DNA of 40,189 nucleotides from a virus: the IMG/VR virus record IMGVR_UViG_3300027631_000046, positions 1 to 40,189 of that record; one strand, written 5' to 3'. Position numbers and translations under genes: made by a program. The notes beneath the pieces are model-generated. The model saw only the letters and a list, made by a program, of their open reading frames with translations. It was not told the origin of the DNA and searched no databases. Of the stretch, positions 1,536 through 31,917 are shown one piece after another; within the stretch, counting starts at the first letter, position 1, and every line of letters begins with the position of its first letter.

Positions 1536-4500
1536 TTAATATGTTCCTCCGTCTATTAATGTTAGTGTAGTTTGAATGTAGTTATCTGTTACCACCGCTT
1601 GTACTCTTGCAGTAGTATGATATAGATTTGTTCCTTCTGCTACATTTGTTGTAGTAAATCCTGTCGTGTTAGCCGATGTTAATAATACTTGTGATGAACC
1701 ACTTACTAATCCTGCAGGTTTTCCACTTATATTTGCCCAAGTTGCTCCTGCTACCGATGCACTTATTGATGTTGCAATTGAACCACTAAATGTTGTATAG
1801 TTGGTTGTTGCGGTGATATCAATTTGAGATGAACCTGATACTAATACTTTAGTTGCACTTGCTCTACCTTCATATGTTGTCGGTGCTGATTGAGTGAATG
1901 CGTTTAAAGATGCAGTTGATTCTTGTATTCTTAAAATTCTAGCGTCAATACTTGCAGTATAAGTTGCTAATGTTGAATCTTTCGTAGCTTGAGATGCTGT
2001 CCATGCATTGATATCAGCAACATGTCCGTTTATACTTGCAGAGAATGTATTCAATGAAGCAGTTGCCGTATTGAATGATGCAGTTACACTTTGAATAGTT
2101 GTAAACTTACTATCAACACTTGCAGTATATAAACTTAATGTGCTAAATTTAGTTTCAAAAGAACCAGTCTTAGTATTAATGTCAGTAATATGACCATTAA
2201 ATGAAGCCGTAGTTAAATTGATACTTGCAGTACTTTCTTCCAATCTAGTCAATCTAGTTGCATTGGATGCAGTTAATGATTGTAAAGTTGTAAATTTACT
2301 ATCAATACTTGCAGTATATAATCCCAATGTAGTATTCTTAGTATCAATACTTGCAGTATATAAACTTAATGTACTATTTTTAGTATCTTGTGAAGAAGTA
2401 TATAAGTTTAGTGATGCAGTACTTTCTTGTAATCTTGCAATTTGAGCTGCATTTGATGCAGTTAAAGTTTGAAGAGTTAAATTCTTAGTGTCTTGTGAAG
2501 AAGTATATAAGTTTAATGAAGCAGTTGATTCTTGTAATCTACTAACTTGTGCGGTCATTGAAGCCGTTAAAGTTTGAAGAGTAGAGAATTTACTATCAAT
2601 ACTTGCAGTATAAGTTTGTAATGTACTATCTTTAACTAATTGAGATGCACTGAATGCGTTTAGTGATGCAGTACTTTCTTCTAATCTATTTAATCTATTA
2701 CCCGTTGTACCACCACCCAATGATTGAGATACTAATGTAATCGTTGCGTTACTTGCACTTATAGAAGTTGCAAGTGAACTACTAAATGTTGTATATCCGT
2801 TTGTTGAATCAATAAATATTTGTGATGAACCACTTACTACACCCATGCCACCTGCTACCAATATTTGTGATTCTGTTCCTAATTTTCCTGCTTTCCAGTA
2901 ATCATTGGTTACATCCCAAAGTAAAGAACCTGAAGTAGTTGAACCACCACTTGCATCTCTTACTTGTATACCACCATCAGATGTTCCTGCTGCATTTAAT
3001 ACTAATATATTATCTGCAATGTTTACCGTTGTAGAGTCAACAACTGTTTGAGTACCTTGTACAAACAAATTACCTTTAATAGTTGTATCACCATTTACTG
3101 TTATATTCACTCCACTTGCAGTTATTGCTGCTCTTAATGATGTGGTATATGAATTTAAACCAGATATTGATGTATTTACACTTGCAGAAGTAGTTTCTAA
3201 GTTTGTTAATCTAAGTCCTGCTGATGCTGTAAATAAGTTTAACGATGATGTACTTTCTTGTAATCTAGTTAAGTTAGCATTTAGACTTGAAGTATAAGTT
3301 GCTAATGTACTATTTTTAGTATCTTGTGAAGAAGTATATGCGTTTAAACTTGCAGTTGATGCTTGGATATTACCAAACTTAGTATCAGCTGATGAAGTAT
3401 ATAAATTTATTGATGCGGTACTTTCTTCAATTCTTGTAAATCTAGTTAAAGCAGATGCACTAAATGTATTTAAACTTGCAGTTGATGCTTGAATATTGCC
3501 AAACTTAGTTTCAACACTTGCAGTATAAGTTGCAAGGGTTGTGTTTTTGGTATCTTGTGAAGAAGTATATAAGTTTAAACTTGCAGTTGATGCTTGAATA
3601 TTACCAAACTTAGTTTCAAATGAACCAGTCTTAGTATTGATATCCGCAATATGACCATTAACTGATGCAGTTGTTAAGTTAATACTTGCAGTTGATTCTT
3701 CCAATCTACTCAATCTTGTATTTTGAGTTGTATTGGTAGTATCATTAGATGAAGTATATGCGTTTAAACTTGCAGTTGATTCTTGTATTCTTAAAATCTT
3801 AGCGTCAACACTTGCAGTATAAGTTCCTAAAGTAGAAAACTTAGTTTCAAATGAACCAGTCTTAGTATTGATGTCTGCAATATGTCCTAATGTACTTGCA
3901 GAGAATGTGTTTAAACTTGCAGTAGCAGTGTTAAATGATGCAGTTACACTTTGTATTATTGTAAATTTAGAATCTACTGACGCAGTGTATAATCCCAATG
4001 TACTATTCTTAGTATCTTGTGATGCCGTGTATAAATTTAAACTTGCAGTCGACTCTTGTATTCTTAAAACTTGTGCTGCCATTGAAGCAGTTAAAGTTTG
4101 AAGAGTAGAGAATTTAGTATCAACACTTGCAGTGTATAATGCTAATGTACCATCTTTGGTTAATTGAGACGCAGTAAATACGTTCATTGAAGATGTATAG
4201 TTTCCAATGATTACATCCTTAGCTTCTTGTGATGCAGTAAATGAATTTACCGATGCAGTTGCTGCACTTAAATGTGCAACTGAACTACCTATCGTTCCAC
4301 TACCAATAGATGAACTTAATGCGGTAATTGAACCTGAAACCGAACTACTAAATGTTACAAAAGTAGAACCTGTAAAGTTATTTAAAGATGATGTACTTTC
4401 TTCTAATCTACTTAATCTTGCATTTTGTGCAGTATTGGCAGTATCGTTGGAAGATGTATAACTATTTAAAGAAGTATTTGCGTTACTTGCAGTGAATAAA

Positions 4501-6638
4501 TTTAAAGATGCAGTACCTTCTTCAATTCTTGTAAAGCGAGTTGTAACTGTTGTATTTGTTGTCGCTTGTGAAGATGTGAATGAGTTTAATGATGCAGTAC
4601 TTTCTTGTATTCTAATCAATCTTGTTTCAAAAGAACCAGTTTTAGTATTGATATCACTAATATGTCCTAATGTACTTGCAGAGAATGCGTTTAATGATGA
4701 TGTACTTTCTTCTAATCTTGTTAATCTTGCATTTTGTGCAGATTGTGCAGAGTCGTTAGATTGAGTATATGCATTTATATTATCAATAGAACCACTAATA
4801 GAACGAGAGTATGCGTTTAAAGATGCAGTTGATTCTTCTAATCTACTCAATCTTACACCATATGCGTTTGTAGTTGTTGTATTACTTTGTGTATATGAGT
4901 TTAAAGAAGTATTTCCGTTACTTGCAGTAAATGAGTTTAATGATGCGGTACTTTCTTCAATTCTTGTAAATCTAACATTTGCAGATGAAGTATATGTTTG
5001 TAAATTATCATTTTTAACATTAAGACTTGCACTTGTAGTTTCTAAATTAGTTAATCTTATAGTTGCAGATGCAGTATATGAATTTAAAGATGATGTACTT
5101 TCTTCTAATCTGCTTAATCTATTTAAATTAGATGCAGTTAGAGATTGTATGGTAGTAAATCTATCTTCAAATGAAGCAGTTCTACTATTAATATTTACAA
5201 CATGTCCGTCAATTGAACCTGTATAAGTTGCTAATGTTACAAACTTAGTATCAATTGATGCAGTATACGTTTGTAATGTACTATCTTTAACTAATTGAGA
5301 TGCACTAAATGTGTTTAATTGAGTTACAGAACTTCCAAGATTACCACTACCTACTGATGCAGATAATGCGTATATTGAAGCGGATACCGAACTACTTAAA
5401 GTTGTCAATGATGCCGCTGATGCAGAGTCGGTTGTTGCTACCGAACTACTAAATGTTGTAAATCCAGTTGTTGATGTAATGGTAATTTGTGAAGAACCAC
5501 TTACTACATCATCTCCTCCTGTTCTTAATATTTTTAATTCAGCTCCTAATGGGCCTGCTTTCCAGTAATCATTTGTAGAATCCCAAAGTAAAGAACCCGA
5601 AACAGTTGCTCCACCGGTTGGGTCTTTAACTAATAAACCACCATTTGCTACCGATGAACCATTTAATTCTATAATATTATCACCAATACTTACTGTCGTA
5701 GATTGGATTGATGTTGTTGTACCCTTTACAGTTAAGTCACCATTGATTGTTATATTTGTACCACTTGCAGTAATTGCTGCTAATAAAGATGATGTAAATA
5801 AATTTAACGATGATGTACTTTCTTCAATTCTAGTTAATCTTGTTGATGTAGATGCACTAAATGTGTTTAATGATGTATTACCATTTGATGCAGTAAAACT
5901 ATTAACCGATGCAGTTCCTGCCGATAATGAGTCTACTCTACTTGATAACGAACCACCACCCGCTCCACCTACTGATGAAGATAATGCTGATATTGATGCT
6001 GATACGTTTGTAATACTATCTGTTAATACTCTACCTTTATATTGGTATCCAGAAATGTATACATATTGTGATGTAGTCGGTGCTACTGTGTTATTAGTAA
6101 ATTGTAAAACACCTGTCTTATAGTCAAATGTATAGTTGTTAGTTGAAACTTGGTCACCTGCTACTACACCAGCTGATGTTGTTGCCGATGATACGAATAC
6201 TTTAACACCATAACCTGGAGTTGCATCTTCAGCGTTTGCGTTTGCTAATGATACTGCACCATATTTTGGAGATATAAAATTTGTTTGTTGATTACCATCA
6301 ATTAACTGAGCACCAATACCTGCTGCAGATGCAGAAGAATTGGATAATAAAAACCAAACCTCACTTTTAGAACTACTTACTAAATCCGAACGAGTTAATC
6401 CTGCTCTGTAATAATATTGCATTACAGATTGGCCGTTTATCGAATATATAGACCCACTCTGCGCACTTCCACTAAAAGGTAATCCAGTAGAAGGTATCAA
6501 TCCTTGGTCAACATATACCTCATTGGCGTTTATATCCAATGTAGATGTAAAAGCTTCCTGAGAATCGGTATAAGCGTCGTGTGTGTATCTTCTACTTTGA
6601 AGGAGCCTATTGGATTTTGATAATTTATCTATTGCCAT
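1536..6638 (-). CDS. Giant heptad-repeat tail fibre protein (1700 aa)
   Basis: The protein has an N-terminal globular part (about residues 1-215), probably for attachment, and long coiled-coil stretches. Two copies of a globular beta module (about 289-400 and 1172-1290) interrupt the coils. The coils repeat a seven-residue pattern TASxxxx (variants TSS, SAS, TGS), with hydrophobic residues at positions 4 and 7 or 1; frequent blocks are RLEESTASLN, ASVDTKFSTL and INTKTGSFETKF. The spacing between TAS marks is nearly always 7, 14 or 21 residues. The globular module contains NGDLTVKGTTTS and GSLLWDxTNDYWKAG, layouts common in fibres of marine T4-like phages. Four copies of VSGSSQ(I/V) also occur. 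An extended, probably trimeric fibre is inferred. The coding DNA is itself repetitive, so copy number may be affected by assembly. Confidence 0.78.
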   Translation of the reverse strand: MAIDKLSKSNRLLQSRRYTHDAYTDSQEAFTSTLDINANEVYVDQGLIPSTGLPFSGSAQSGSIYSINGQSVMQYYYRAGLTRSDLVSSSKSEVWFLLSNSSASAAGIGAQLIDGNQQTNFISPKYGAVSLANANAEDATPGYGVKVFVSSATTSAGVVAGDQVSTNNYTFDYKTGVLQFTNNTVAPTTSQYVYISGYQYKGRVLTDSITNVSASISALSSSVGGAGGGSLSSRVDSLSAGTASVNSFTASNGNTSLNTFSASTSTRLTRIEESTSSLNLFTSSLLAAITASGTNITINGDLTVKGTTTSIQSTTVSIGDNIIELNGSSVANGGLLVKDPTGGATVSGSLLWDSTNDYWKAGPLGAELKILRTGGDDVVSGSSQITITSTTGFTTFSSSVATTDSASAASLTTLSSSVSASIYALSASVGSGNLGSSVTQLNTFSASQLVKDSTLQTYTASIDTKFVTLATYTGSIDGHVVNINSRTASFEDRFTTIQSLTASNLNRLSRLEESTSSLNSYTASATIRLTNLETTSASLNVKNDNLQTYTSSANVRFTRIEESTASLNSFTASNGNTSLNSYTQSNTTTTNAYGVRLSRLEESTASLNAYSRSISGSIDNINAYTQSNDSAQSAQNARLTRLEESTSSLNAFSASTLGHISDINTKTGSFETRLIRIQESTASLNSFTSSQATTNTTVTTRFTRIEEGTASLNLFTASNANTSLNSYTSSNDTANTAQNARLSRLEESTSSLNNFTGSTFVTFSSSVSGSITALSSSIGSGTIGSSVAHLSAATASVNSFTASQEAKDVIIGNYTSSMNVFTASQLTKDGTLALYTASVDTKFSTLQTLTASMAAQVLRIQESTASLNLYTASQDTKNSTLGLYTASVDSKFTIIQSVTASFNTATASLNTFSASTLGHIADINTKTGSFETKFSTLGTYTASVDAKILRIQESTASLNAYTSSNDTTNTTQNTRLSRLEESTASINLTTASVNGHIADINTKTGSFETKFGNIQASTASLNLYTSSQDTKNTTLATYTASVETKFGNIQASTASLNTFSASALTRFTRIEESTASINLYTSSADTKFGNIQASTASLNAYTSSQDTKNSTLATYTSSLNANLTRLQESTSSLNLFTASAGLRLTNLETTSASVNTSISGLNSYTTSLRAAITASGVNITVNGDTTIKGNLFVQGTQTVVDSTTVNIADNILVLNAAGTSDGGIQVRDASGGSTTSGSLLWDVTNDYWKAGKLGTESQILVAGGMGVVSGSSQIFIDSTNGYTTFSSSLATSISASNATITLVSQSLGGGTTGNRLNRLEESTASLNAFSASQLVKDSTLQTYTASIDSKFSTLQTLTASMTAQVSRLQESTASLNLYTSSQDTKNLTLQTLTASNAAQIARLQESTASLNLYTSSQDTKNSTLSLYTASIDTKNTTLGLYTASIDSKFTTLQSLTASNATRLTRLEESTASINLTTASFNGHITDINTKTGSFETKFSTLSLYTASVDSKFTTIQSVTASFNTATASLNTFSASINGHVADINAWTASQATKDSTLATYTASIDARILRIQESTASLNAFTQSAPTTYEGRASATKVLVSGSSQIDITATTNYTTFSGSIATSISASVAGATWANISGKPAGLVSGSSQVLLTSANTTGFTTTNVAEGTNLYHTTARVQAVVTDNYIQTTLTLIDGGTY
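1850..2740 (-). repeat. Heptad-repeat coding block, distal part
   Basis: This block encodes about residues 1300-1600 of the giant fibre: imperfect 21-base-multiple repeats of the TASxxxx heptad, ending in the C-terminal VSGSSQ-containing part. The boundaries are approximate. Confidence 0.7.
2765..3125 (-). repeat. Second copy of the fibre's duplicated globular module
   Basis: This encodes about residues 1172-1290 of the giant fibre, from ITASGVNITVNGD to TTFSSSLATS. It matches the copy at 5435-5774 in order and in most signature words, including SGSLLWDxTNDYWKAGxLG and GxVVSGSSQI. The copies differ enough that the duplication is not recent. Confidence 0.8.
3140..5425 (-). repeat. Heptad-repeat coding block, central part
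   Basis: This encodes about residues 405-1165 of the giant fibre. Words such as TASLN, RLEES, IQAS and INTKTGSFETKF recur in one register, with distances in multiples of seven residues (21 bases), over roughly 2.3 kb. Few breaks are visible; one lies near residues 800-850, where a short Gly/Ser spacer occurs. Confidence 0.75.
5435..5774 (-). repeat. First copy of the fibre's duplicated globular module
   Basis: This encodes about residues 289-402 of the giant fibre, from ITASGTNITINGD to TTFSSSVATT. It is the partner of the copy at 2765-3125. Confidence 0.8.
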
Positions 6639-6664
6639 TTTATATCGTTGTTATTCTTTAATTA

Positions 6665-9154
6665 TTAACTAAATGTTGTTGTAATTGATGTAACTGGTGT
6701 TGGGTCTCCTTTGTATCTTACGATTACATATATGTTTGTATAAGTTGCGTTTAATGCCATACCATCACCATTTCTTAAAGGAATTGTATAAGTTGTTGAC
6801 GATAATGAACCACCTGTATTACCATATAATTGGAATGCAGAACCAAATGGATTTTGTCCGTCTGAATTTGCCGTTTTACTTGCAACAAAGTTTGTCAATA
6901 AATCCGATGGGTCAAACAATCTTGCATTACCTGCTCCGTATACGTTTGTACCAGATGATTCAAATAAAATCAATGCACCTATTGCGTTGTTTGTTGTTGT
7001 ACCCCAGTTTACTAATGCTTGTCCTAAATTCAAAGTCATAGAAGTTTTAGTTCCTGATGTTGTGAATTTACGAACATAGTATTTGAAAGTTTTAGAAGTA
7101 TCGGGGTCACCTAACCAATATCCGTAAGTTCCACCTGGTTTTACTAAATACCCTGGTTTAACTTGTAAGTCGTTTCCACTTAATGTATATAATCCAAATG
7201 TAGTTGTCCATGCGGTTCCACCAAATGCTAACACATTATCTGCTAATTGAATACGATAGTTTTCACCAGTAAATGATTCAATTAATGCCGTAGAAGTATC
7301 CGCTCCTTGCGTTCTTGTATAATATGCTAATGAACCCGAAGATACTGGTTGACCAAATGTACCTGCGGTATGATAATCAAATGTATTTACTTTTGATACA
7401 GATGAACCATTGTTATAGTTTACACCATTCATTGTTGCAGTCCAAGTTAATGGAGTGTTTGATGATTGACCTATATTTGTTATGTTTGCAGAACCAAATG
7501 TATATAATCCGTTTAATCTAACTACATCTGTTTCAAATGGAATTGTAGAAGTAGCTCTAACTGTTGTGTTTGTTGTATCAAAAACACCATTTGCAGTTGA
7601 TATTGTTCCTCCTGATGTTACAACCGAATTTACACCCGATGTTGCGGTTATACCTGTACCACTCAATGCAATCGAACCAACTGTTCCGTTATAGAATAAT
7701 GGATTAAATAGGTTTGTTATTGAAGATGATATTGAATATGTTGAACCACTTAAATAAGGTGCTCCTGATAATGAACGAGAAACTGCGGTTAAATAACTCA
7801 ATGTTGTACTACCTGTTGCTGATGTTTGAACAGGTATGTTTGTTGCTATTTGAGTTAATGGTGCGTAGAATATACCTTCCGTAACTACTATTGGTGTTGT
7901 AAATGCAGATGAACCACTTGCAATTGAAATTGATGCGGTTACATCATAATATCCAGATATATTAATAGTCGATGTTGAACCAGTTACATATATTTTTTGA
8001 GGTAATACCGATGCAAACTTACCATCCTGATATGCTGCAGGGATAACTGCTGAGTTAGCCGTATTTATTTTTGCTAAAGTCACACCATTTGTAGTACCTG
8101 CTCCTGTTTGAGTTGCTAAATTTTGAGATGATGATATTAAAGTATCAGTTTTTGTACTATTATCTTTAAATCTATGTGTAACAGACCCACTAACTTTAAA
8201 ATTTGTAGGTGTACCATTACTCAATAAACCTAATCCAAATAATTGTGCATCTGCAGATGAACTTACTACCGTAGTTCCTGCTGCAGTTGATGTATAACTA
8301 ACTTGATAAGTATCTTGTGTATAAATTGGAGTAATTCCAGTAAATATTGTAGAACCTGCAGTTGCAAATCCTTTACTATTTAAATAAGTAATTGTTGTAT
8401 TTGTAGAACTTTGAGGAATATATCCTGTTAATGCAGTTCCAGTTGTTGTATTTGTTGCTGCATCTGTTACTGTACTATATGTTTTAGTATTTGGGGATGC
8501 ATCCGGTGCTGACGATGATAATAAACCTGCTACAAATCTTAATATTTCAGATACATTTGTTTCAGAAGTAAAGTTATTAAAATAAGAACCACTCAATCCA
8601 CTTTGCCAAGCATTTGAAGATGGAATACCAACCGTTACGTTATCTGGGTCAATTGTTCCACTTACTCTTACACTACCTGTAATTTCTAAAGTATTTTGAG
8701 TTCTATATACTGAACCAGTTACTGTTGCTGCAGAACTAGTTGGAGTAAATATACCCGTATTAGCTGCAATACTTGCACTTAAACTTGTAACCGATGCAGC
8801 TACTGAACCTGAAAAGACTCCAATATTACCTGTTAGGTCAATTGCGGTATTTCTATCACTACCTAAAAGGAATAATGTTTGACTACCACTCGCATAATAA
8901 GGAACACCATCTACCATTCCGTTGTATATAGATGATGAGAATATAGGAGCAACTGAACCAGTTCCTCTCATAATTCTATTAACTGCCTGAACAGAGCCAC
9001 TCTCTACAACCGCAAATACAATTGATGAACCATTTTGTGATGATGATAAGAGAGATGAACCTGATGCTATAATCAATTCACCTTTTTGAAGGGATGATGT
9101 TACTGCTGCTAGGGATTGTAAACTACCCCTTTTGTGTTTAATGATTTGTGCCAT
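6665..9154 (-). CDS. Large beta-rich tail appendage protein
   Basis: This 829-residue protein is rich in Ser, Thr, Gly and Asn and starts with a divergent version of the shared fibre module (MAQIIKHKRGSLQSL, then LQKGELIIASG). The central part is a long run of short beta strands with GSVRVSGTI-like words and no visible catalytic motif. The C-terminal third contains TFKYYVRKFTTSGTKTSMTLNL. It ends with IYVIVRYKGDPTPVTSITTTFS-type sequence, a C-terminus I recognise from structural proteins of marine phages. This suggests a structural appendage, for example a short fibre, baseplate spike or receptor-binding protein. It lies between the 280-residue coiled-coil protein and the giant fibre, 26 bases upstream of the latter. 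The specific virion position is not determinable. Confidence 0.68.
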   Translation of the reverse strand: MAQIIKHKRGSLQSLAAVTSSLQKGELIIASGSSLLSSSQNGSSIVFAVVESGSVQAVNRIMRGTGSVAPIFSSSIYNGMVDGVPYYASGSQTLFLLGSDRNTAIDLTGNIGVFSGSVAASVTSLSASIAANTGIFTPTSSAATVTGSVYRTQNTLEITGSVRVSGTIDPDNVTVGIPSSNAWQSGLSGSYFNNFTSETNVSEILRFVAGLLSSSAPDASPNTKTYSTVTDAATNTTTGTALTGYIPQSSTNTTITYLNSKGFATAGSTIFTGITPIYTQDTYQVSYTSTAAGTTVVSSSADAQLFGLGLLSNGTPTNFKVSGSVTHRFKDNSTKTDTLISSSQNLATQTGAGTTNGVTLAKINTANSAVIPAAYQDGKFASVLPQKIYVTGSTSTINISGYYDVTASISIASGSSAFTTPIVVTEGIFYAPLTQIATNIPVQTSATGSTTLSYLTAVSRSLSGAPYLSGSTYSISSSITNLFNPLFYNGTVGSIALSGTGITATSGVNSVVTSGGTISTANGVFDTTNTTVRATSTIPFETDVVRLNGLYTFGSANITNIGQSSNTPLTWTATMNGVNYNNGSSVSKVNTFDYHTAGTFGQPVSSGSLAYYTRTQGADTSTALIESFTGENYRIQLADNVLAFGGTAWTTTFGLYTLSGNDLQVKPGYLVKPGGTYGYWLGDPDTSKTFKYYVRKFTTSGTKTSMTLNLGQALVNWGTTTNNAIGALILFESSGTNVYGAGNARLFDPSDLLTNFVASKTANSDGQNPFGSAFQLYGNTGGSLSSTTYTIPLRNGDGMALNATYTNIYVIVRYKGDPTPVTSITTTFS

Positions 9155-13851: not shown

Positions 13852-15468
13852 TTATAAAGTGTTCAAACCTTCAACGATAACTTTACCATAAAACTCAGGT
13901 CTTACGATTTTCTTAGCGTATCTAGTCATAACACCTCTTCTTGGAGTGAAGTTAGTTGGGTCATAAACCAATGGAGTCATAATCAATGGTACATAAGGTG
14001 CGTAAACTGCTCCTGTTTCGAAGAAGTTAGAACCTTTGAAACCTAATAAGATTACATTCTCAGTCATGTATGGGTTTTTGTAAACGTCATATCTGTTAGA
14101 GATAGAACCGATGTTAGTTACACCTGCAGAGAAAGTTAACGCATCTTTTGATGGGTTAGCAGAGAAACCATTCATTGATTCTAAAATTGTTGCTACGTTT
14201 GGAGATACAACGATAAAGTTTGCACCACCTCTCATAGTCAATTGATGAATCTTGTTAGAAACTTTTTGTAACTTAATACCTAAAGTTTGGTACCAAGTGC
14301 TCTTTGTGTAAGCAGAAGCAGCTGCTGCGTTAGAATCAACTGCGAATCTACCAGTAGCAGAATCGTAATCGTATCCAACTCTAGCTGACCAATAGTCAGT
14401 AGTGAAAGCGTTTTGTTGTAACATTTCTAAGATTTCTAAGTCGATTTCTAAAGAGATGTATTCAGACAACATTTGAGTTAACTCAGCTTCAGCGTCTACA
14501 CTATGGTAAGCGTTTAAATCTTGAGCTAATTCCGGTGTCCAAATTGCTTTTAATTTTCTTGTCTTAGCAACAATTGGTTCAGATTTCAATTCTAATTCGA
14601 TTTCTGGAATTGCTAAATCAGTTCCTCTATCTTCAAAGTCACCTCTTGAAATATCATCAGGTTGTTTAGAGTAAACTAAAGTTTGAGCAGTTAAATCAGT
14701 TGCAACGATTAAAGCTGCAGAAGAAGAAACATAGAAAGAAGCCGAACCATTGTTCAATGTAGTTAATTCTGGGTAGTGAGATACTGCCGTAGAACCTGAA
14801 ATTTTAAATGCTCTTACACCATTGTAATCAGCGTTAGAAGGTAAACCAACAGTTACTTTTCTCCAGTTATTTGGATATGCTGCAAAAGATGCAGATAATG
14901 TTTCATTACCTAAAAAATCAGATGCAGAACCAGAAGATACAACTGCGGTTGCTGCAGCGGTTACGTCATTGATTGTATATCCGAATCTTCCTGCACCATA
15001 TAAACCACCTTCAGTTGCTTGAGTAGAACCCAATTTGTTACCGGTTGGTGATAAATTATCTTTACCAAAAGTACCACCATTACCAAACATAGAAGAACCA
15101 GAAGCTGGTCTATTTGCATCGTTTTGAGTACCATATTTGAAATCCATGTAGAAAATAAGACCTGAAGGTAAGTTCATTGGTTGAACTGAAACGAATTCTT
15201 TAGCTGCGATAGAACCGAAGATTCTTCTTACTAAAGGTAACGCAACACCTGCCCACTCTTCAGAACCTGAAGATGTACCTGTTCTTGTAGCCTCATCTAA
15301 TAATTGTTTAGCTTGGTTTTCTAACATTACTGCCATACCATGTTTAGTTGTTTCAGAACCTACTCCTTCAAGTAAGCCTGTTTTTTCCCATTTGCTTTTC
15401 AAACCTCTTGTTTGTTCAAGCATTACGCTTTGAGGGTTAGCGCCTGTCATTAATTTTTTAATGTCCAT
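13852..15468 (-). CDS. Major capsid protein (gp23-type)
   Basis: This HK97-fold shell protein forms the hexamers of the head. At 538 residues it is close to T4 gp23 (521). Matching segments include LKSKWEKTGLLEG near the start, GMAVMLENQAKQLLDEA (about 44-60) and LPLVRRIFGSIAAKEFVSVQPM. The T4-like GLIFYMDFKYGT follows, corresponding to the GLIFAMRSRYG stretch of T4. The C-terminal domain has the conserved ELEFxL-like and RRGVMTRYAKKI parts. The N-terminal 60-70 residues probably carry the propeptide removed by the gp21 protease; LLE (32-34) and MLE (48-50) fit its general L/I-x-E preference, but the site cannot be fixed. The gene follows the scaffold gene and is closed by a strong terminator. 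Confidence 0.93.
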   Translation of the reverse strand: MDIKKLMTGANPQSVMLEQTRGLKSKWEKTGLLEGVGSETTKHGMAVMLENQAKQLLDEATRTGTSSGSEEWAGVALPLVRRIFGSIAAKEFVSVQPMNLPSGLIFYMDFKYGTQNDANRPASGSSMFGNGGTFGKDNLSPTGNKLGSTQATEGGLYGAGRFGYTINDVTAAATAVVSSGSASDFLGNETLSASFAAYPNNWRKVTVGLPSNADYNGVRAFKISGSTAVSHYPELTTLNNGSASFYVSSSAALIVATDLTAQTLVYSKQPDDISRGDFEDRGTDLAIPEIELELKSEPIVAKTRKLKAIWTPELAQDLNAYHSVDAEAELTQMLSEYISLEIDLEILEMLQQNAFTTDYWSARVGYDYDSATGRFAVDSNAAAASAYTKSTWYQTLGIKLQKVSNKIHQLTMRGGANFIVVSPNVATILESMNGFSANPSKDALTFSAGVTNIGSISNRYDVYKNPYMTENVILLGFKGSNFFETGAVYAPYVPLIMTPLVYDPTNFTPRRGVMTRYAKKIVRPEFYGKVIVEGLNTL

Positions 15469-17456: not shown

Positions 17457-17951
17457 TTATTTTAATTTTTTTTCTATATCCGCAATTGATTTGTTTTGTA
17501 AATCTTGGTCTTGAAATCCTTTTGAAATTGCGTTTCTTAATTCATTTTGTAATTGAGTTTCATCAAAGGTTTTATCTTTATTTTTTTTCAATTCTTTATC
17601 TATATTTCTTTTAATAATATTACTATCCATATAAATGTTAACCAATGTATTTAAATTTGCACCACTAAAATATGCACTATCTAATTTTGTAGCTAAATTA
17701 TTATCGTTAATTCCTGATTCTACTATACGTCTTAATGCTTTTGATAAATTATAGTCTCTACCATCTAAATAAGATTGAAAATTATATGCAAGATTTCCCA
17801 ACCATGTAAATATAAAATATATTCCTATTGGTTTAAGAATTGCAGTTAATAAGTTTTCTTCCAATTTAGTTTTAGGTAATGAATTTTCTTTACCAACAAT
17901 TGTTTTGTCAGTTTTATATTTTTCATTAACTAAATCAGATAATTTTTGCAT
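17457..17951 (-). CDS. Membrane-segment head-region protein, paralogue of the ORF at 19247
   Basis: A 164-residue protein with a charged N-terminus (about 1-34) and a hydrophobic segment, LLTAILKPIGIYFIFTWLGNLAY (about 35-58), long enough to cross a membrane. A helical domain follows, ending in DETQLQNELRNAISKGFQDQDLQNKSIADIEKKLK. The layout (ENxxxxxILxxx, hydrophobic segment, ~100-residue helical tail, ExQLxxxL, ending IxxxxKKxLK) is shared with the ORF at 19247-19597, including the region upstream of its TTG codon. I infer paralogy. Function unknown. A hydrophobic protein in the prohead gene cluster could be an initiator of head assembly at the membrane or an ejected internal protein. It abuts its neighbours without gaps. 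Confidence 0.65.
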   Translation of the reverse strand: MQKLSDLVNEKYKTDKTIVGKENSLPKTKLEENLLTAILKPIGIYFIFTWLGNLAYNFQSYLDGRDYNLSKALRRIVESGINDNNLATKLDSAYFSGANLNTLVNIYMDSNIIKRNIDKELKKNKDKTFDETQLQNELRNAISKGFQDQDLQNKSIADIEKKLK

Positions 17952-18654: not shown

Positions 18655-19245
18655 TTAATTAAGTTCAATTATAATTTCTCTCATTAAATCTTGTGACTTA
18701 CACCACTTACCACACTCATCAGCTACTTGCTTCCAATGTTTTGATTCATTCATAGGTGCCATAAATGCTCCATGTGTTGATGGGTTAGATACAAAATCCC
18801 AACCTACCAATTCAAAATCTTCTGCTACCATTACAGTACCATCTCTTAATTCTTTTACTGAACCCAATCCTCTAGATGAAATACCTAAACGAATGTTGTT
18901 CTTTAATAATTCTTTTAAGATGTTACCTGATGGTGTTGAAAGTATTTCTACTACTCCACATACATCATCACCTTCCCAATAGATTTCTCTAATGTTATGT
19001 GATACATTCTTTAAATTAATAACAGGAGATTCAGGATGGTCTAATTCACCCAAAGCTCTTCTTTCTTTAATAAGTTGTTGGTATTTTTGACACTCTCTTT
19101 CTAAAATTTCTTTAGGATATCTTCTATTATTTTGATTTGGAGCACCTGCCCTTTGAAGAATCCCCTTAACTAAGTAAGTTCCATTTTCTTCTTGTTGAAG
19201 TTTTGCTTCAAACAAATGCGTTTCTATCAATAATCCTTTATTCAT
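18655..19245 (-). CDS. Prohead maturation protease (gp21-type)
   Basis: T4 gp21 cleaves scaffold and capsid precursors inside the prohead. This 196-residue serine protease (herpesvirus-assemblin-like fold) has GELDHPESP with His70 and LGISSRGLGSV with Ser123 or Ser124, the characteristic pair. Between them come strands HNIREIYWEGDDVCGVVEIL and TPSGNILKELLKNNI. The opening is LLIETHLFEAKLQQEENGTYLVKGILQRAG. Length is close to T4 gp21 (212). It lies among the small prohead genes, upstream of scaffold and capsid as in T4. The third catalytic residue is not assignable by eye. Confidence 0.9.
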   Translation of the reverse strand: MNKGLLIETHLFEAKLQQEENGTYLVKGILQRAGAPNQNNRRYPKEILERECQKYQQLIKERRALGELDHPESPVINLKNVSHNIREIYWEGDDVCGVVEILSTPSGNILKELLKNNIRLGISSRGLGSVKELRDGTVMVAEDFELVGWDFVSNPSTHGAFMAPMNESKHWKQVADECGKWCKSQDLMREIIIELN

Positions 19246-19246
19246 T

Positions 19247-19597
19247 TTATTTCAAATCTTTTTTTACTTTTTCAACTATTTTATCTGATATTGATGCATC
19301 ATTCCAAGATTTTATTAATATTGTCTTTAATTGATTTTCAATTTCAGTTTCAGTTAATTCACCATTTGTACTATCACTCGTTTTTATAATTTGAGTTCTT
19401 ATATAAGGTAAATTTAAAATCTTATCAGCCGTTCCACTATCAATTCCACTTTTTGGGTCAATAAATTTTGAAATATCAGATACCACTTTTTTATTATTTG
19501 ATATTGAATCTAATATTTTTCCAATTTCTTTTTTATGAACTGATTTTCCTGAAAAATAATTCATTCCTTTTTTTACCAATTCATAAATAAAATACAA
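19247..19597 (-). CDS. Helical tail of a membrane-segment protein, possibly expressed by -1 frameshift
   Basis: The ORF from the TTG at 19597 gives 116 residues (ending in ETEIENQLKTILIKSWND and KIVEKVKKDLK). The frame stays open upstream to the poly-A run at 19664-19674 and encodes VNENIAIGILSTLATAILGR, then IILYFIYELV, a clear hydrophobic segment. There is no ATG or GTG start in this extension. The arrangement matches the 164-residue paralogue at 17457-17951. The preceding gene ends within 5 bases of the slippery run. So the real product is either started at TTG, or fused to the upstream protein by -1 slippage (about 242 residues), or the genome has a homopolymer error. Function unknown. 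Confidence 0.6.
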   Translation of the reverse strand: MYFIYELVKKGMNYFSGKSVHKKEIGKILDSISNNKKVVSDISKFIDPKSGIDSGTADKILNLPYIRTQIIKTSDSTNGELTETEIENQLKTILIKSWNDASISDKIVEKVKKDLK

Positions 19598-19659
19598 TAT
19601 AATTCTACCTAATATAGCAGTTGCTAACGTTGATAATATTCCTATTGCAATATTCTCAT

Positions 19660-19974
19660 TTACTTTTTTTTTTTCACCACTTCGTTTTTAGCTCTTAGTG
19701 CTGCTAAATCCGAACCTTCAATCTCACCATCACCATCGGTGTCAATTTTCTTTTGGCCGGCAGTTAATTCGGCTTCATTGTATCCAGTCAATCTACCTTC
19801 CGATTTTGCTTTATTTGCTTTATCAACTGCAGTAAAGAATTTAACCTTTTCTGCATCTGACATATCAGGAATAGATTTACCCGTTTTATCCAACATATGT
19901 TTGAATAATTGTTGATAATCACTTTCTTCTTTAACTACCTGACGGATAAGTTCTTTTAGTTCTGTATGTTTCAT
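19660..19974 (-). CDS. EF-hand-like small head-region protein
   Basis: A 104-residue protein. After a short amphipathic N-terminal helix (MKHTELKELIRQVVKEE) and a conserved-looking MSDAEKVKFFTAVDKANKAKSEG, it has an EF-hand-type loop DTDGDGEIEGSD (78-89). Asp78, Asp80, Asp82, Glu84 and Asp89 occupy the ligand positions, with Asp in place of the usual Glu at position 12. A C-terminal NEVVKKKK follows. Calcium binding is plausible but unproven. The ATG overlaps the previous stop (TAATG). The last codons AAA AAA AAA AAG TAA contain A AAA AAG, the slippery sequence of the dnaX type, and the -1 frame continues into a membrane segment (see the next ORF). Confidence 0.68.
   Translation of the reverse strand: MKHTELKELIRQVVKEESDYQQLFKHMLDKTGKSIPDMSDAEKVKFFTAVDKANKAKSEGRLTGYNEAELTAGQKKIDTDGDGEIEGSDLAALRAKNEVVKKKK
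19664..19674 (-). promoter_or_regulatory. Candidate -1 frameshift site (A11 run)
   Basis: An 11-base poly-A run on the coding strand ends in A AAA AAG followed by the TAA stop, in frame for the EF-hand gene. Slipping back by one base continues into the ORF at 19247-19663 without a stop. No upstream Shine-Dalgarno-like enhancer or clear downstream pseudoknot is visible, so a homopolymer sequencing error must be considered too. Confidence 0.35.
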
Positions 19975-21761: not shown

Positions 21762-23504
21762 CTACTCTTTATCTAAATTCTCTGTTAAAATCTTTTTTTT
21801 ATTCCCATTCATATCTTTAAATATCTCTAAATATGAATTTTTTGGAACGTATTTTTTAACGGAGCCTTCTTTTGATTTAAGAGTTTTTATTCCCAATGGG
21901 TCTCTGCCGTCTGGATGGTCATCGTGTCCATATCTAACAGGGTCTTTTGGTCTACCTACATTATCTTCTTCTAATTCTGTTTTTAACCTATCCAATTCTT
22001 CTTCTATATTCGTAGGGCCATTGGTACCAGTTTCCTTTGCAGGGTCAACACCTTGTGTTTCTATTGATGTTAAACGGAATTGTTGTTTTGTATCATCTAA
22101 TACTTGTAATGTCAAATCATCTTGCTCATCTTTAGCTAATCCCATAATAGCCTGATACATCCACTCTTTAGAGAACATTTTGGTTTGTTGCATTTGTGTA
22201 ATCAATGCCACCTTTGAAGTATACAATTCAATTTTTTCTTGTTCATATATCTTTGATGGAATAGTCAATTCTAATGTAAAATTGGTCAATCTATCGTCAT
22301 CAATACCTTGTGAATATAAATGTACTATTGCAATTTTTGTAAATTCGGAGATGATGACTCTTTGTATTCTTTCAATTGTTTTTGCAAATCTAACATCTAT
22401 TGCTGCAAGAGTTGCTTTACCATTAGTATCTTCTTCGTATCCTAAATATGCTTTTGGAATTTGCAATGCTGCCATCAACTTACCTTTTAAGTAGTTAAGG
22501 TCATCGGTCATATTATATTCTAATCCTTTCAAAGTATCAATTGAAGTACCATTATCACTACCACGTACTGGCATATAATAATCTTCAATTAAATTTTGCA
22601 TATTGTATTTCAAATTGTACTCACCTGTTCTTTCATCTATAAATGGAACTTTTTTAGAACCATTTATAATTTTTTGCATGTAGTTATCTACTTCATTTGG
22701 TGGAATATTACCAACATCTACTTTAAAGATTCTCTTTTCAGGAGCTCTCATTACTCTATGAATTAACATTGCATCTTCCATCAACATTAATTGTTTCCAA
22801 ACTCTTCTACCACCTTCTAACATAGATTTACCATAAGGTAAAAAGTTAGAATCGTTATTTAAACGGAAGTGAGCAATTTCATAGTTCTCATATTCTTTCT
22901 TTGCCGTTTGTCCTACTGCATTGTAAGGGTTTTGATATGGTGCGTATACAAATTTAACTCTTTGTGGATTTTCTTGGTCAAATCCTTCAATTCTACTCAT
23001 TTCATAGGTAGACATTGGAAGTACATTAACAATACCAATATTTTCCGCCATTTCTAATTGTAAATAAAAATCACCATATTTAACCAAGTTTCTTGTCCAA
23101 GGCCATAAGTTGAATTCTACATTAAGAATATCGTAAAATAAGTTTTCTAAAATTTGTTTGATGTTATCATCTTCGTGATGAATTTTTAATACATTACCCA
23201 TTTCATTTCTAGCCGAAGTTTCATCTGCGTATGTATTTAATGCGGAATGTAGAATCGGGTCCATGTCCATTGAATCGTAATCTCTAAACAAGTCAATTCT
23301 AACTTGCTGATATGCCATCGAAGATTCCATTTGTCCTGTACCATAATTGGTAACACGCATTTTCATAAACCTGTCAACGAGGTTAGTAGTCATATTTTGA
23401 TACTCATCGGTATCTACGACTTTAACTCCGTCTTGTGTTTTACGAACAATTGTACTTGTTGAAAATAATTTTTGTAACCTACCGAATATTGTTTTGTCTG
23501 CCAT
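21762..23504 (-). CDS. Portal protein (gp20-type)
   Basis: Twelve portal subunits form the DNA entry channel and head-assembly start point. The protein has 580 residues (T4 gp20 has 524). Diagnostic segments are MLMEDAMLIHRVMRAPEKRIFKVDVGNIPPNEV (compare [29 protein letters not shown] in T4) and YNMQNLIEDYYMPVRGSDNGTSIDTLKG. These are followed by LNYLKGKLMAALQIPKAYLG and RFAKTIERIQRVIISEF. The N-terminus (DLFRDYDSMDMDPILHSALNTYADE) is also typical. The C-terminal 100 residues are polar and include a charged EEELDRLKTELEED helix and a VRYGHDDHPDGRDPLG loop that T4 lacks. Confidence 0.95.
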   Translation of the reverse strand: MADKTIFGRLQKLFSTSTIVRKTQDGVKVVDTDEYQNMTTNLVDRFMKMRVTNYGTGQMESSMAYQQVRIDLFRDYDSMDMDPILHSALNTYADETSARNEMGNVLKIHHEDDNIKQILENLFYDILNVEFNLWPWTRNLVKYGDFYLQLEMAENIGIVNVLPMSTYEMSRIEGFDQENPQRVKFVYAPYQNPYNAVGQTAKKEYENYEIAHFRLNNDSNFLPYGKSMLEGGRRVWKQLMLMEDAMLIHRVMRAPEKRIFKVDVGNIPPNEVDNYMQKIINGSKKVPFIDERTGEYNLKYNMQNLIEDYYMPVRGSDNGTSIDTLKGLEYNMTDDLNYLKGKLMAALQIPKAYLGYEEDTNGKATLAAIDVRFAKTIERIQRVIISEFTKIAIVHLYSQGIDDDRLTNFTLELTIPSKIYEQEKIELYTSKVALITQMQQTKMFSKEWMYQAIMGLAKDEQDDLTLQVLDDTKQQFRLTSIETQGVDPAKETGTNGPTNIEEELDRLKTELEEDNVGRPKDPVRYGHDDHPDGRDPLGIKTLKSKEGSVKKYVPKNSYLEIFKDMNGNKKKILTENLDKE

Positions 23505-27822: not shown

Positions 27823-30800
27823 TTAAGAGTAAAAAATACCAAGTATCTGATTTAGTGGTGCAAATGTACCTGTTAACTTATATGTTTTTCCACCATAAAA
27901 GAAAACAATTCCTTCACTTGCTACAATTTTATCTATTCCACCCAATGAGTTTAATCTTGATAATTCTTGTTTTAATTTAGATATTTTAGATGGGTCACCA
28001 CCACTTCTTACTTGAGATGCAACCGATACAAATTTTTGTTTCATTGCTCTAATTGCTTTTTCAGGGTGAATGGTTAATACACTACCAACAAATTCTAAAA
28101 CATCTGCACCTACACCTAAAAATATTTCTTCAAATGGTTTGATATTGTCTTTTTGTTGTTTTGCAACATTTACTTTATCATTTGTAGTTGCCCATTTTTG
28201 TAATTCTAAATTTAATATTGTATTTAATCTAAATCCTTTATCACCAAATGCCCATCTTCTAATTAATGCTTCTTTTGTAATTTTGTCAACCTTAATAGGT
28301 GCGTTTGATGTAATCCACCAATCCCACCAACTTTGATGGTAGTCTGCAACATTATCCGAATCACTCAATCCAAATTCTGATTGTAGTTTTTTAAGTTTTG
28401 ATAAATACTTACCTTGCTTTGAACTTAAATCGTCCGATTTTGGTATTGATGTTATTGGAGGGCCTTGTATTGTATATTTAGATTGAACATCTGCGTTGAC
28501 TTGCTTAATCATTCCGGCTAAAGTTCCCGCTGCTCCACCATCTGCTCCAATTGCCACACCCTTTTCATCATAACAAGTTGTATTATGAAAAACTAAAAGA
28601 GCTTGACCATAAGGAATAACATTAACTGATGTAGGCCATATAACTTCTAAATTCATAAAACATTTACCTTCGTTGAATATCTTTTTTCTTTGTGCATCGG
28701 ATAATCCACTTATTGCTGCAGATAAATCTTTCATTGCAAAATTGTATGCGTCGGTTAAACCACCTCTACCACCAAACTTTGACGCAACATCTTCTATTCC
28801 CATTGCGTTTGCTCCTGCGTTTGCTAAATTACCTTTGTTTCTAGCTGCAATCAATCTACCATTTTTCCAACTTATTGCTAATGCTTGTCCGTCAGTTTTT
28901 TCTCTAACTACTCCTAAGTCACCATTAAGTGCTTTTGAAATAATATCTTTTAAATCACCAAAAGTTAAATCCATATCATCAAATGGATGTGACATGTGCC
29001 CATATGCTCCACCTTCTAATAACAATGATTCATTCAAATCTGGTTTAATATTTAACTCTTTTTCCATTTGAGTTATTTCATCATATCCCATATTACGAAG
29101 TGCTTTTGCAACTGTGGTTGGATTGGTTTTATTAGGATTACCAAAAAGGTATGCGTTGATTCTTTTTCTGAATGTTGAATCTCTATATAGTTTTATCATA
29201 TTCATAAAATGGACATCCGTAGATTTCATTTCATCTATTTCATCTTTTTTAAATATGTTTTGTCCTTTGTCACCCAATCTAAATGTTGCTGCTTTCTTAC
29301 CATTTATTGTTGGCATTCCGTAGTCATCCTTTCCAATATCTTTTACAACAACTTTTTTATTTTTGAATTTTCCCATCAATACGGTATCACCTTTATCAAC
29401 ATCTATATTGATACTTTCGTTATAAATTTGTTTATTTATTTTACCATAGTTTCTCATTAAGATACCGGCTACTGCATGTGCTTGGTTTTCAATTGGAGAA
29501 CCTGTTGCACCATCTTTAACTTCATCTTTTACTAAACCCAATTCATCTTGTTTTCTATGCACCATCTCATGTGCAATAGTTCTAAGAATATCTGCACCCA
29601 ATCTTCCTTCGATTGCTACATATATTTCTTTTGACATTGGATTATATCCTCCTAAACTGGTTTTTGCTTCAGAATATTCTCTACCTGTTAGTAAAGTTAT
29701 TTTTGGTTGTTCTTTAAGTTTTAATCTTTTAGTTGCATATTCTATAAAATGATTAATAGATTTTTTTTTTGAGTCAGAAATATTTTCTTTCATCAAATCT
29801 GCAACTGCGTTTTTTGGTTTGTCTTTATTGTATCTGTGAATTGTTCTTAACATTTGTTCTTTAGAAAGTTTGTATGTTTCTAATTTTTTCAAAATTGTTT
29901 TGGTGTAGTTTTTTATAAATTTATCTTTGTCGAATTCATTATCTTTATCAGTATTTTCAAATATACCCGTAACACCCAATACAACACCACCTGCAGCTGA
30001 TTGGTTTTCACTCATTCCTAATGATTCAAGTCCTACGTGTTTTATGATATCTTTCATCACATATCCTCCAATATTATTTGCAGCAAATTTATATCCGATT
30101 TTTGCTGCTGCTCCTTTTACCATTGCTGTTATCCCACCTCCTGCTGATGCGGCGGCTCCAGCTCCCAATATTGCACCGGCCGCTGCAACTCCACCAATAA
30201 CGTATGCACTAAATTTAACCAAATTTTTTCCAGCTTTTTTTTGTCTTTTACTTTCTTTCCAAGAAGCTTCAAATAATTCCTTTTCTTCATCGGTAGCTTG
30301 TTCCGATATTTTTGGTTTTTTTTCTTTTTTCTTTTTTCCTGTTGGGTGGCCATGTGAATCTAAAACATCAGTTTCAATTTCTTCATATTCTGCACCTCCA
30401 CCTCTACCAACTGAAGTGAATTCACTCCAATGTCTATTTTTTCCGTCTTTGTCTTTTACACTACCAATTTTACCAGTAGTTGCTATTGATTTTATCATAC
30501 TGCCAACACCACTAATCATTTCCTTATTGTGTTCCCAGACATGCTTTATGGCATTACCTATATGATTTCCAACCTTTTGAATATAATGCATTACACCTTT
30601 TCTTTCAGGAGACTCTGGGTTATTTGCATCGTCTGAATCTTTTTTTTCTTCGTCAGACCATTCTTTTTTGGATATATCTAAAGCTCTTTCTAATTTTTCA
30701 TCTCGTTCAGCAGCTGCTTTTTCATCAGGACTCATTTCAGCTGCATTTTTTAATTCTGCTCCACTTAATTTTTGTTCAGGTGGTGGTGCGTCTGTTTTTT

Positions 30801-31917
30801 CTCCTGGTTTTCCTGTACCTGCTTCTGGTTTTTCTTTATCAACTTTACCTTGTGCAGTTTGGTCTTTTTTGGTTGGTTGGCCTGGTTGAGCCGGTTTATC
30901 AGCTTGGACTTTTGTTTTTCCAGGTTCTTCTTTTTTCTTTGGTTCGTTTGCAGGTGCATCTTCTGGCCCTGCTATTTTTGCAGCTTGGATATGTGCAGGG
31001 TGGTCTTTTGGTAATCTCAATGCATTTCTAGCTTTGATTTTCTTTGGTTGACCGGTACTATCTGTATAAGAAATGTCGACATCCAATGCTTTATTTGCAT
31101 CTTCACCGAAATATTCTGATATAAATTCACTAAATGTCTCTTCGGTAACAACTTTAGTAATTAATTCTCCAATTGGGTCGTATGGTTTATCGGATGGGTG
31201 TTCTGTCTCATGTCTTGTAGGATGTGGTTCAGGTCTCATTTCATAAGAAGGTTTTGTATTATTACTTTCTTTTACTGAACCCGTTGGTGCTCCATTAATG
31301 TATCCTCCTGGTAAATCTAATCCTACACCTATACCACCTGGAAAACCTTCATTTAGTTTTGTTGTTATCATTTTAAAAATATCTTTGTCAAATTTTGGAT
31401 ATGCTTTAAGAAAAAACTTCTTAGCCTTTTCTTTATCGTTACTTCCTAATCCCTTTCTTACATCCGTTCCACTTATTGGATTTGTTTCTGCAGGTATTGG
31501 ATATGTATAACCTATTTCATCATAACCATACCCAGCTTTACCTTTGTATGGTTTAAAATATTTTCCTTGTAATCTAGTCGCGTCTTTGTCACCTACTGCT
31601 GCTATGTATGCAATCGTTTGACCATCGTATTTTTTTAATATTTCTGCAGGTCTATATGGATTACTTACTTTTACAAACTTAGTAGATGGAACACCAAACA
31701 TCTTAGTTGCAATTTCTTTTTTCTCATTAAAAGAAAATGGAGATTTACCAGAAGATGTATCATTTGATGTTGCAATATAAACATTTGCAGGGCCAAACTC
31801 ACTTACCAATCTTTGGTACGCATCATAGTGTCCTTTGTGAAATGGTTGAAAACGTCCTGCGTATACAATTATTTCACCTTGTATTTTTGGTTTATCTTTT
31901 TCTGTCAGTAAATTCAT
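27823..31917 (-). CDS. 1364-residue fusion: nucleotidyltransferase, metallopeptidase-like, ligase-like
   Basis: Residues about 15-185 form a HxGH nucleotidyltransferase (NMN adenylyltransferase/cytidylyltransferase type): GRFQPFHKGH (21-30) and ISGTDVR (148-154). Residues about 320-430 are a Lys/Pro/Glu-rich linker. A hydrophobic Ala/Gly region lies at about 555-610. HEMVH (783-787) with Glu810 in PIENQAHAVAG has the pattern of a zinc metallopeptidase. Residues about 990-1364 carry ligase-superfamily motifs: KTDGQ (Lys1007, motif I), IAARNKG, FMNLEV (Glu1091, motif III), SEGIVFFY (Glu1335, motif IV) and TYKLTGTF (Lys1347, motif V). The long III-IV spacing points to an insert. All three active sites look intact. 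Roles are unknown; an injected enzyme or RNA/NAD-related function is possible. A nonamer lies 3 bases before the ATG. Confidence 0.82.
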   Translation of the reverse strand: MNLLTEKDKPKIQGEIIVYAGRFQPFHKGHYDAYQRLVSEFGPANVYIATSNDTSSGKSPFSFNEKKEIATKMFGVPSTKFVKVSNPYRPAEILKKYDGQTIAYIAAVGDKDATRLQGKYFKPYKGKAGYGYDEIGYTYPIPAETNPISGTDVRKGLGSNDKEKAKKFFLKAYPKFDKDIFKMITTKLNEGFPGGIGVGLDLPGGYINGAPTGSVKESNNTKPSYEMRPEPHPTRHETEHPSDKPYDPIGELITKVVTEETFSEFISEYFGEDANKALDVDISYTDSTGQPKKIKARNALRLPKDHPAHIQAAKIAGPEDAPANEPKKKEEPGKTKVQADKPAQPGQPTKKDQTAQGKVDKEKPEAGTGKPGEKTDAPPPEQKLSGAELKNAAEMSPDEKAAAERDEKLERALDISKKEWSDEEKKDSDDANNPESPERKGVMHYIQKVGNHIGNAIKHVWEHNKEMISGVGSMIKSIATTGKIGSVKDKDGKNRHWSEFTSVGRGGGAEYEEIETDVLDSHGHPTGKKKKEKKPKISEQATDEEKELFEASWKESKRQKKAGKNLVKFSAYVIGGVAAAGAILGAGAAASAGGGITAMVKGAAAKIGYKFAANNIGGYVMKDIIKHVGLESLGMSENQSAAGGVVLGVTGIFENTDKDNEFDKDKFIKNYTKTILKKLETYKLSKEQMLRTIHRYNKDKPKNAVADLMKENISDSKKKSINHFIEYATKRLKLKEQPKITLLTGREYSEAKTSLGGYNPMSKEIYVAIEGRLGADILRTIAHEMVHRKQDELGLVKDEVKDGATGSPIENQAHAVAGILMRNYGKINKQIYNESINIDVDKGDTVLMGKFKNKKVVVKDIGKDDYGMPTINGKKAATFRLGDKGQNIFKKDEIDEMKSTDVHFMNMIKLYRDSTFRKRINAYLFGNPNKTNPTTVAKALRNMGYDEITQMEKELNIKPDLNESLLLEGGAYGHMSHPFDDMDLTFGDLKDIISKALNGDLGVVREKTDGQALAISWKNGRLIAARNKGNLANAGANAMGIEDVASKFGGRGGLTDAYNFAMKDLSAAISGLSDAQRKKIFNEGKCFMNLEVIWPTSVNVIPYGQALLVFHNTTCYDEKGVAIGADGGAAGTLAGMIKQVNADVQSKYTIQGPPITSIPKSDDLSSKQGKYLSKLKKLQSEFGLSDSDNVADYHQSWWDWWITSNAPIKVDKITKEALIRRWAFGDKGFRLNTILNLELQKWATTNDKVNVAKQQKDNIKPFEEIFLGVGADVLEFVGSVLTIHPEKAIRAMKQKFVSVASQVRSGGDPSKISKLKQELSRLNSLGGIDKIVASEGIVFFYGGKTYKLTGTFAPLNQILGIFYS

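Follow-up and report, generated by a model that had tools for sequence, protein, structure and literature searches.

A small EF-hand-like gene in the structural cluster of T4-like phages ends in a long run of A residues at which programmed frameshifting into the −1 frame, most likely by the ribosome, probably leads translation into a helical extension and yields a minor fusion protein of about 242 amino acids. The gene was analyzed on the minus strand of a 40,189-nucleotide viral sequence (IMG/VR record IMGVR_UViG_3300027631_000046; hereafter the window) and in its IMG/VR relatives. Judged by sequence comparison, the programmed frameshift is genuine and conserved; its type is known, whereas the gene family and the phage group are both new. 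In the mechanism that we propose, ribosomes translating the small gene would arrive at (N)AA AAA AAA AAG followed directly by a stop codon and, in most relatives, would pause at a hairpin that lies 3' of the heptamer, separated from it by about 8 nt. A fraction of them would move back by a single base within the A-run and read about 138 codons more. Two proteins would result: the short form of 104 aa and, as the minor form, a fusion of about 242 aa that includes a hydrophobic helix and a helical bundle. The frameshift may in this way hand the helical domain an N-terminal leader, allowing it to enter proheads in a low, constant proportion.

The 3' end of the 104-aa ORF reads GTG AAA AAA AAA AAG TAA, with the dnaX-type heptamer A_AAA_AAG abutting the stop codon; the original prediction had described this end of the EF-hand ORF, and a re-reading of the sequence found the description and all of its coordinates correct (Table 1). 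Translation in the −1 frame from GTA (19663..19661) gives VNENIAIGILSTLATAILGR... and proceeds to a stop codon at 19249..19247, so that the fused product has the predicted length of about 242 residues (104 + 138 = 242 aa). In the window sequence, the −1 frame has no start codon ahead of the junction, none at it and none immediately past it. The downstream ORF had been said to possess only a TTG start; indeed, the earliest ATG, GTG or TTG of the frame is a TTG at codon 23, which lies within the hydrophobic helix, and the earliest ATG is codon 34. In a near-identical IMG/VR contig (L001), which carries an identical A11 run, the −1 frame is open for just 9 codons upstream and likewise contains no start codon there. 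The A11 run is the longest A or T homopolymer in the window.

Table 1. Features of the slip site, the extension and the neighboring structural genes, in window coordinates
Feature	Position	Strand	Basis or remark
T4-like major capsid protein (gp23)	13852..15468	−	PF07068, E 2.2e-77
Standalone paralogue of the extension domain, own ATG, LxxLVNE leader	17457..17951	−	hhalign probability 82%, E 1e-5
Prohead protease (T4 gp21 type), next gene downstream	18655..19245	−	PF03420, E 1.6e-29
−1 frame extension, 138 codons plus stop, without its own start codon	19663..19247	−	sequence, relatives
Hydrophobic segment, domain residues 5–29	19577..19651	−	sequence; predicted helix 3–36
Place of the conserved putative stimulatory hairpin, spacer about 8 nt	19599..19656	−	weak or rebuilt here; strong in most relatives
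Zero-frame stop TAA	19660..19662	−	sequence
dnaX-type heptamer A_AAA_AAG, zero frame, abutting the stop	19669..19663	−	sequence
A11 slippery run	19664..19674	−	seen as plus-strand T11; length exactly 11
Zero-frame ORF, 104 aa, upstream half of the fusion	19974..19660	−	sequence; 80 IMG/VR relatives
T4-like portal protein, located upstream within the cluster	21762..23504	−	PF07230, E 1e-67

Relatives were collected by scanning IMG/VR with the EF-hand protein, with a profile of the extension, and with a DNA pattern requiring just six A's. The EF-hand protein scan returned 80 loci of two kinds. Those of the first kind lack the extension: the gene ends in R(N/K)K(K/D), the protease gene follows with TAATG or TAATATG, and A-runs near the gene end do not exceed A7. 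In those of the second kind, a run of at least 10 A's and a stop codon are followed by the extension in the −1 frame. The final set comprised 60 distinct run-bearing sequences (28 clusters at 85% identity), and the extension lies in the −1 phase in 57 of them, is a separate ATG gene in two, and occupies another phase in one (L087). The comparison strongly supports the predicted −1 fusion. The homologous run is A9–A12 in all 58 distinct relatives other than the standalone versions, and flanking codons offset this variation in length so that the phase is unchanged. The original prediction had named conservation of the heptamer among related phages as a check; A_AAA_AAA is universal, and A_AAA_AAG, for which AGG and AAC variants exist, is not.

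The constant phase also bears on an alternative raised at the outset, that the apparent frameshift reflects a homopolymer sequencing or assembly error. A11 runs are generally error-prone; against this, numerous metagenome contigs of independent origin, with A9, A10, A11 or A12, all show a single phase. Because the phase remains constant while the run length varies, with the flanking codons compensating, such an error is excluded for all practical purposes. The one sequence in another phase, L087 (2739–3008 and downstream), has an EF-hand part truncated at DKDGEL and joins the run in a manner that needs +1, not −1. It is alone in calling for +1, against the −1 model, and could be either a true variant that depends on losing a single A or a product of faulty assembly.

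Expression of the downstream ORF as a separate gene, through a non-standard start codon or by re-initiation past the stop, is highly improbable. The domain does exist as a separate ATG gene at four loci representing two distinct relatives (L121, L123–L125), and also as paralogues, but 58 of the 60 distinct relatives lack any in-frame start ahead of the run and have neither ATG, GTG or TTG nor a common near-cognate start at or near the junction. A non-standard start was rejected on this ground. Furthermore, a separate gene would need neither the invariant −1 phase nor the A-run, and the true separate versions have an ordinary ATG and an extra leader. A clean ATG in related phages had been named in advance as an observation that would speak against the frameshift. 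It does occur, in two of the 60 distinct sequences (L121; L123–L125). These have a leader of their own, and their run is rephased and not followed by a strong hairpin; they represent an alternative architecture and do not refute the frameshift.

The extension is real coding sequence, since third codon positions change fastest (substitution at positions 1/2/3 is, e.g., 0.35/0.14/0.42) and the non-coding frames of the domain are full of stops in the relatives. Identity of the extension among relatives falls to about 41–50%. An AlphaFold2 model (pLDDT 88, pTM 0.80) predicts a largely hydrophobic 34-residue helix followed by six helices, and searches of Pfam, PHROGs, PDB sequences and Foldseek revealed no family or fold. 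The prediction had also pointed to a paralogue of the extension elsewhere in the window, a relationship borne out at the profile level (Table 1). A second standalone family is a better match to the extension (L016:2175-2609; hhalign 96%, E 4e-9). This family, with genes at L016:2175-2612 and L047:8337-8774, displays the motif NE[SF]S...ILGGIALFAFF and is encoded downstream of the protease gene, both in genomes that have the frameshift version and in others that lack it.

In the separate-gene versions, the extension (L121:2953-3402, L125:2947-3402) has its own ATG and the leader MIKLKSLLIEVMKKKSVNEN; MIKLKSLLIEV, a leader of the LKxLLxE type, precedes the conserved VNEN. The simplest reading of these sequences is that the extension needs a leader, which it would gain by frameshift fusion in most lineages and would carry itself where it is a separate gene. 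L121 and L125 keep an A10 run, rephased by GT, though runs of A9 or longer are otherwise avoided.

The upstream half is far less constant than the site at its end. In the 104-aa ORF of the window, the N-terminus is of the LKELIRQVVKEE type and a single loop, DTDGDGEIEGSD, resembles an EF-hand; the Pfam EF-hand match, to a loop-like DxDGDGEIE, falls below the curated cut-off (E 0.012, 15.5 bits versus 25.9). The loop is absent in L119 and mostly lost in L087, while in L093 and L235 an insertion of other sequence separates the EF-hand from the slip site. In L105, a 363-aa ORF (about 598–1686) consists of the preceding DUF3008-like gene fused in frame to the EF-hand gene, with the same slip-site end. 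Despite the changes to the upstream ORF in L093, L105, L119 and L235, the slip site and its phase are kept. By this comparison, the EF-hand is dispensable to the frameshift arrangement and the upstream part is very plastic.

The DNA pattern scan, with its minimum of A6, found A10–A12 in 27 of 27 domain-encoding matches and A6–A9 in unrelated matches. Coding sequence of these phages strongly avoids long A-runs, and the junction site keeps them: in 219 non-redundant ORFs, with the junction left out, one run of A9 or longer was observed versus 36 expected from synonymous codon shuffling of the same ORFs. This sole other coding run, an A10 at 29761–29770 in a 1364-aa gene of the window (27823–31917, minus strand), has no counterpart at the equivalent position of 11 relatives. 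It was rejected as a second slip site, being unconserved and with both alternative frames stopping within 3–6 codons. As a conserved signal, the site consists of 9–10 or more A's in a row and, in most lineages, a hairpin on their 3' side.

In the mRNA of most lineages, this putative hairpin has the form AAUCUUGCAAUU...AAUUGGUAAGAUU and begins about 8 nt past the heptamer. Compared with synonymous, protein-preserving recodings, the junction has a mean z of −3.6 (35 loci), versus −0.4 for 114 control windows. The same test yielded −0.2 further downstream in the domain and −0.9 to −2.8 on the standalone paralogues, and the hairpin z of the separate-gene versions (L121/L123/L125) is −1.5 to −1.9. 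With dinucleotide shuffling, the mean z at the junction was −3.2 and other offsets were near zero on average, except −500 (−2.0). Pairing in a fixed register was found in 73.5% of cells, versus 37–55% after sliding; pair 10–57 is CG in 17, UA in 8 and UG in 1, and pair 9–58 is UA in 25, CG in 3 and UG in 1. Pairs changed on both sides showed no excess in the fixed-register count (9 versus 8.5 in shuffles), an Rfam search gave no match, and RNAalifold returned no consensus structure on two alignments. The RNAalifold result is probably explained by a shift of the pairing register between clades, as clades with GCT replacing GGT pair in a register about one base off; given this result, loci were folded individually with the shuffle and synonymous controls. 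The lineage of the window (L001) has a weak hairpin (z −0.8), and the window's copy is therefore not the best example of the signal; the hairpin is weak too in L034 and in the L071 group (z −0.5 to −1.9). An alternative 9-bp hairpin in the window lineage has 9 pairs in L034 (−9.8 kcal/mol) and 8 in L001, where it is weak (−2.3).

The heptamer by itself does not tell slippage of the ribosome from that of RNA polymerase. In E. coli, dnaX naturally has A_AAA_AAG as its site, and nine A's are enough for slippage by bacterial RNA polymerase (PMC5009743); in Citrobacter tssM, an A11 run gives rise to two TssM variants via transcriptional slippage (PMC4256274). Transcriptional slippage alone would require an extra A (or the loss of two) on the A10–12 run, followed by ordinary translation of that subset of the mRNA. 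Such slippage fits a run that is kept at a length of at least 9, and nearly always 10–12, though the heptamer comprises 7 bases, as well as the avoidance of A9+ runs elsewhere; loss of one A would cover L087 as well. Nevertheless, it leaves the conserved 3' hairpin without a role, as this is untranscribed when the polymerase passes the run, and in every case A_AAA_AAA/G stands in the zero-frame register that ribosomes require. We consider it unlikely that polymerase slippage is the whole explanation. Because a 3' structure is not yet transcribed when the polymerase crosses the run, the hairpin would favor the ribosome; in bacterial −1 frameshifting, 3' stimulatory structures generally begin 5–8 nt past the heptamer (PMC4066793). 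Ribosomal frameshifting is ranked first, with a fair chance that polymerase slippage acts too.

A model in which both processes operate at the same site, the run serving polymerase slippage and the hairpin serving ribosomal frameshifting, extends and overlaps the ribosomal explanation and is possible without being the one we favor. Lineages with a weak hairpin, such as that of the window, would then lean more on the run. Most lineages conserve the run together with the hairpin, and the run persists where the hairpin is weak (L001, L034, L076, L100), but a long Lys run could by itself raise ribosomal slippage. More tentatively still, a dual polymerase/ribosome site may set the ratio of a leader-bearing, packaged prohead fusion in these T4-like phages, with lineages switching to a separate ATG gene that has acquired a leader.

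Ribosomal frameshifting, the preferred reading, has several precedents. E. coli dnaX and the IS911/IS3-type elements use the same A_AAA_AAG with a 3' stem-loop 5–8 nt downstream (PMC4066793, PMC5009743), whereas here a run of 9–12 A's replaces the bare heptamer, there is little Shine-Dalgarno use, and it is a protein of the phage structural cluster that would be extended at its C-terminus. T3/T7 gene 10, Lactobacillus A2 and Listeria A118/PSA likewise produce a minor, C-terminally extended virion protein via frameshifting (PMC5009743). The present case differs in that the extension is all-helical and hydrophobic rather than Ig-like, the phages are T4-like, and the extended protein is a small one encoded near the prohead protease, not the major coat protein. 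Transcriptional slippage in Citrobacter rodentium tssM and Thermus dnaX likewise involves an A11 or nine-base homopolymer and two length variants (PMC4256274, PMC5009743), in contrast to the conserved 3' hairpin found here in most lineages and a heptamer that is always in the ribosomal register.

The EF-hand/extension gene is located between the portal and prohead protease genes, with scaffold-like and gp23 genes downstream. In T4, the prohead-core genes sit between the portal and prohead protease genes, with genes 67 and 68 beside gene 21. With the slip site flanked by T4-like genes for the portal and the prohead protease, the fusion probably belongs to the prohead core as a minor component; gene position and a neighbor-like leader suggest, by analogy, that the short protein and the fusion are prohead-core or internal proteins. 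The 104-aa protein begins MKHTELKELIRQVVKEE, a neighbor begins MIKLKNILRE, and the paralogue begins MQKLSDLVNE. The T4 internal proteins and genes 67/68 resemble the present case, again by analogy, in the portal-protease position and in a short N-terminal leader ending in E, while no sequence relation to the present protein was found, and we know of no frameshift in the T4 prohead-core or internal protein genes. If the proposal is correct, T4-type head assembly can likewise fix the ratio of a two-form protein by frameshifting. A short capsid targeting sequence brings internal proteins into the core in T4 (PMC3012670). Unrelated small genes around the protease gene of the window (starts 18380, 17951 and 19974, minus strand) have common L(K/S)xL(L/I/V)xE leaders, which resemble capsid targeting or protease-cleavage leaders.

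A tblastn search of both halves against 50,697 annotated phage records revealed no relative, and the recoding event therefore appears to be undescribed; the T4-like phages that carry it form a widespread, uncultured group. The nearest cultured phages, judged by terminase and protease (about 50–58% identity), are the Flavobacterium immuto phages and Microcystis phage Mel-JY01, in which other genes occupy the equivalent position. A Shine-Dalgarno-like motif was found in 4 of 32 genes, and this limited use is consistent with a Bacteroidota host. Automatic gene callers would miss the extension or begin it within the hydrophobic helix. If the frameshift operates as proposed, the relatives, with runs of A9–A12, with or without the hairpin, and with separate-gene versions, would provide a natural set of sites for telling ribosomal from polymerase slippage. 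Elsewhere in the window, positions 1536–9154 contain large repetitive genes of 1700 and 829 aa, the first with many TASLN/SSLNxFT-like repeats, which are probably of the tail-fibre type.
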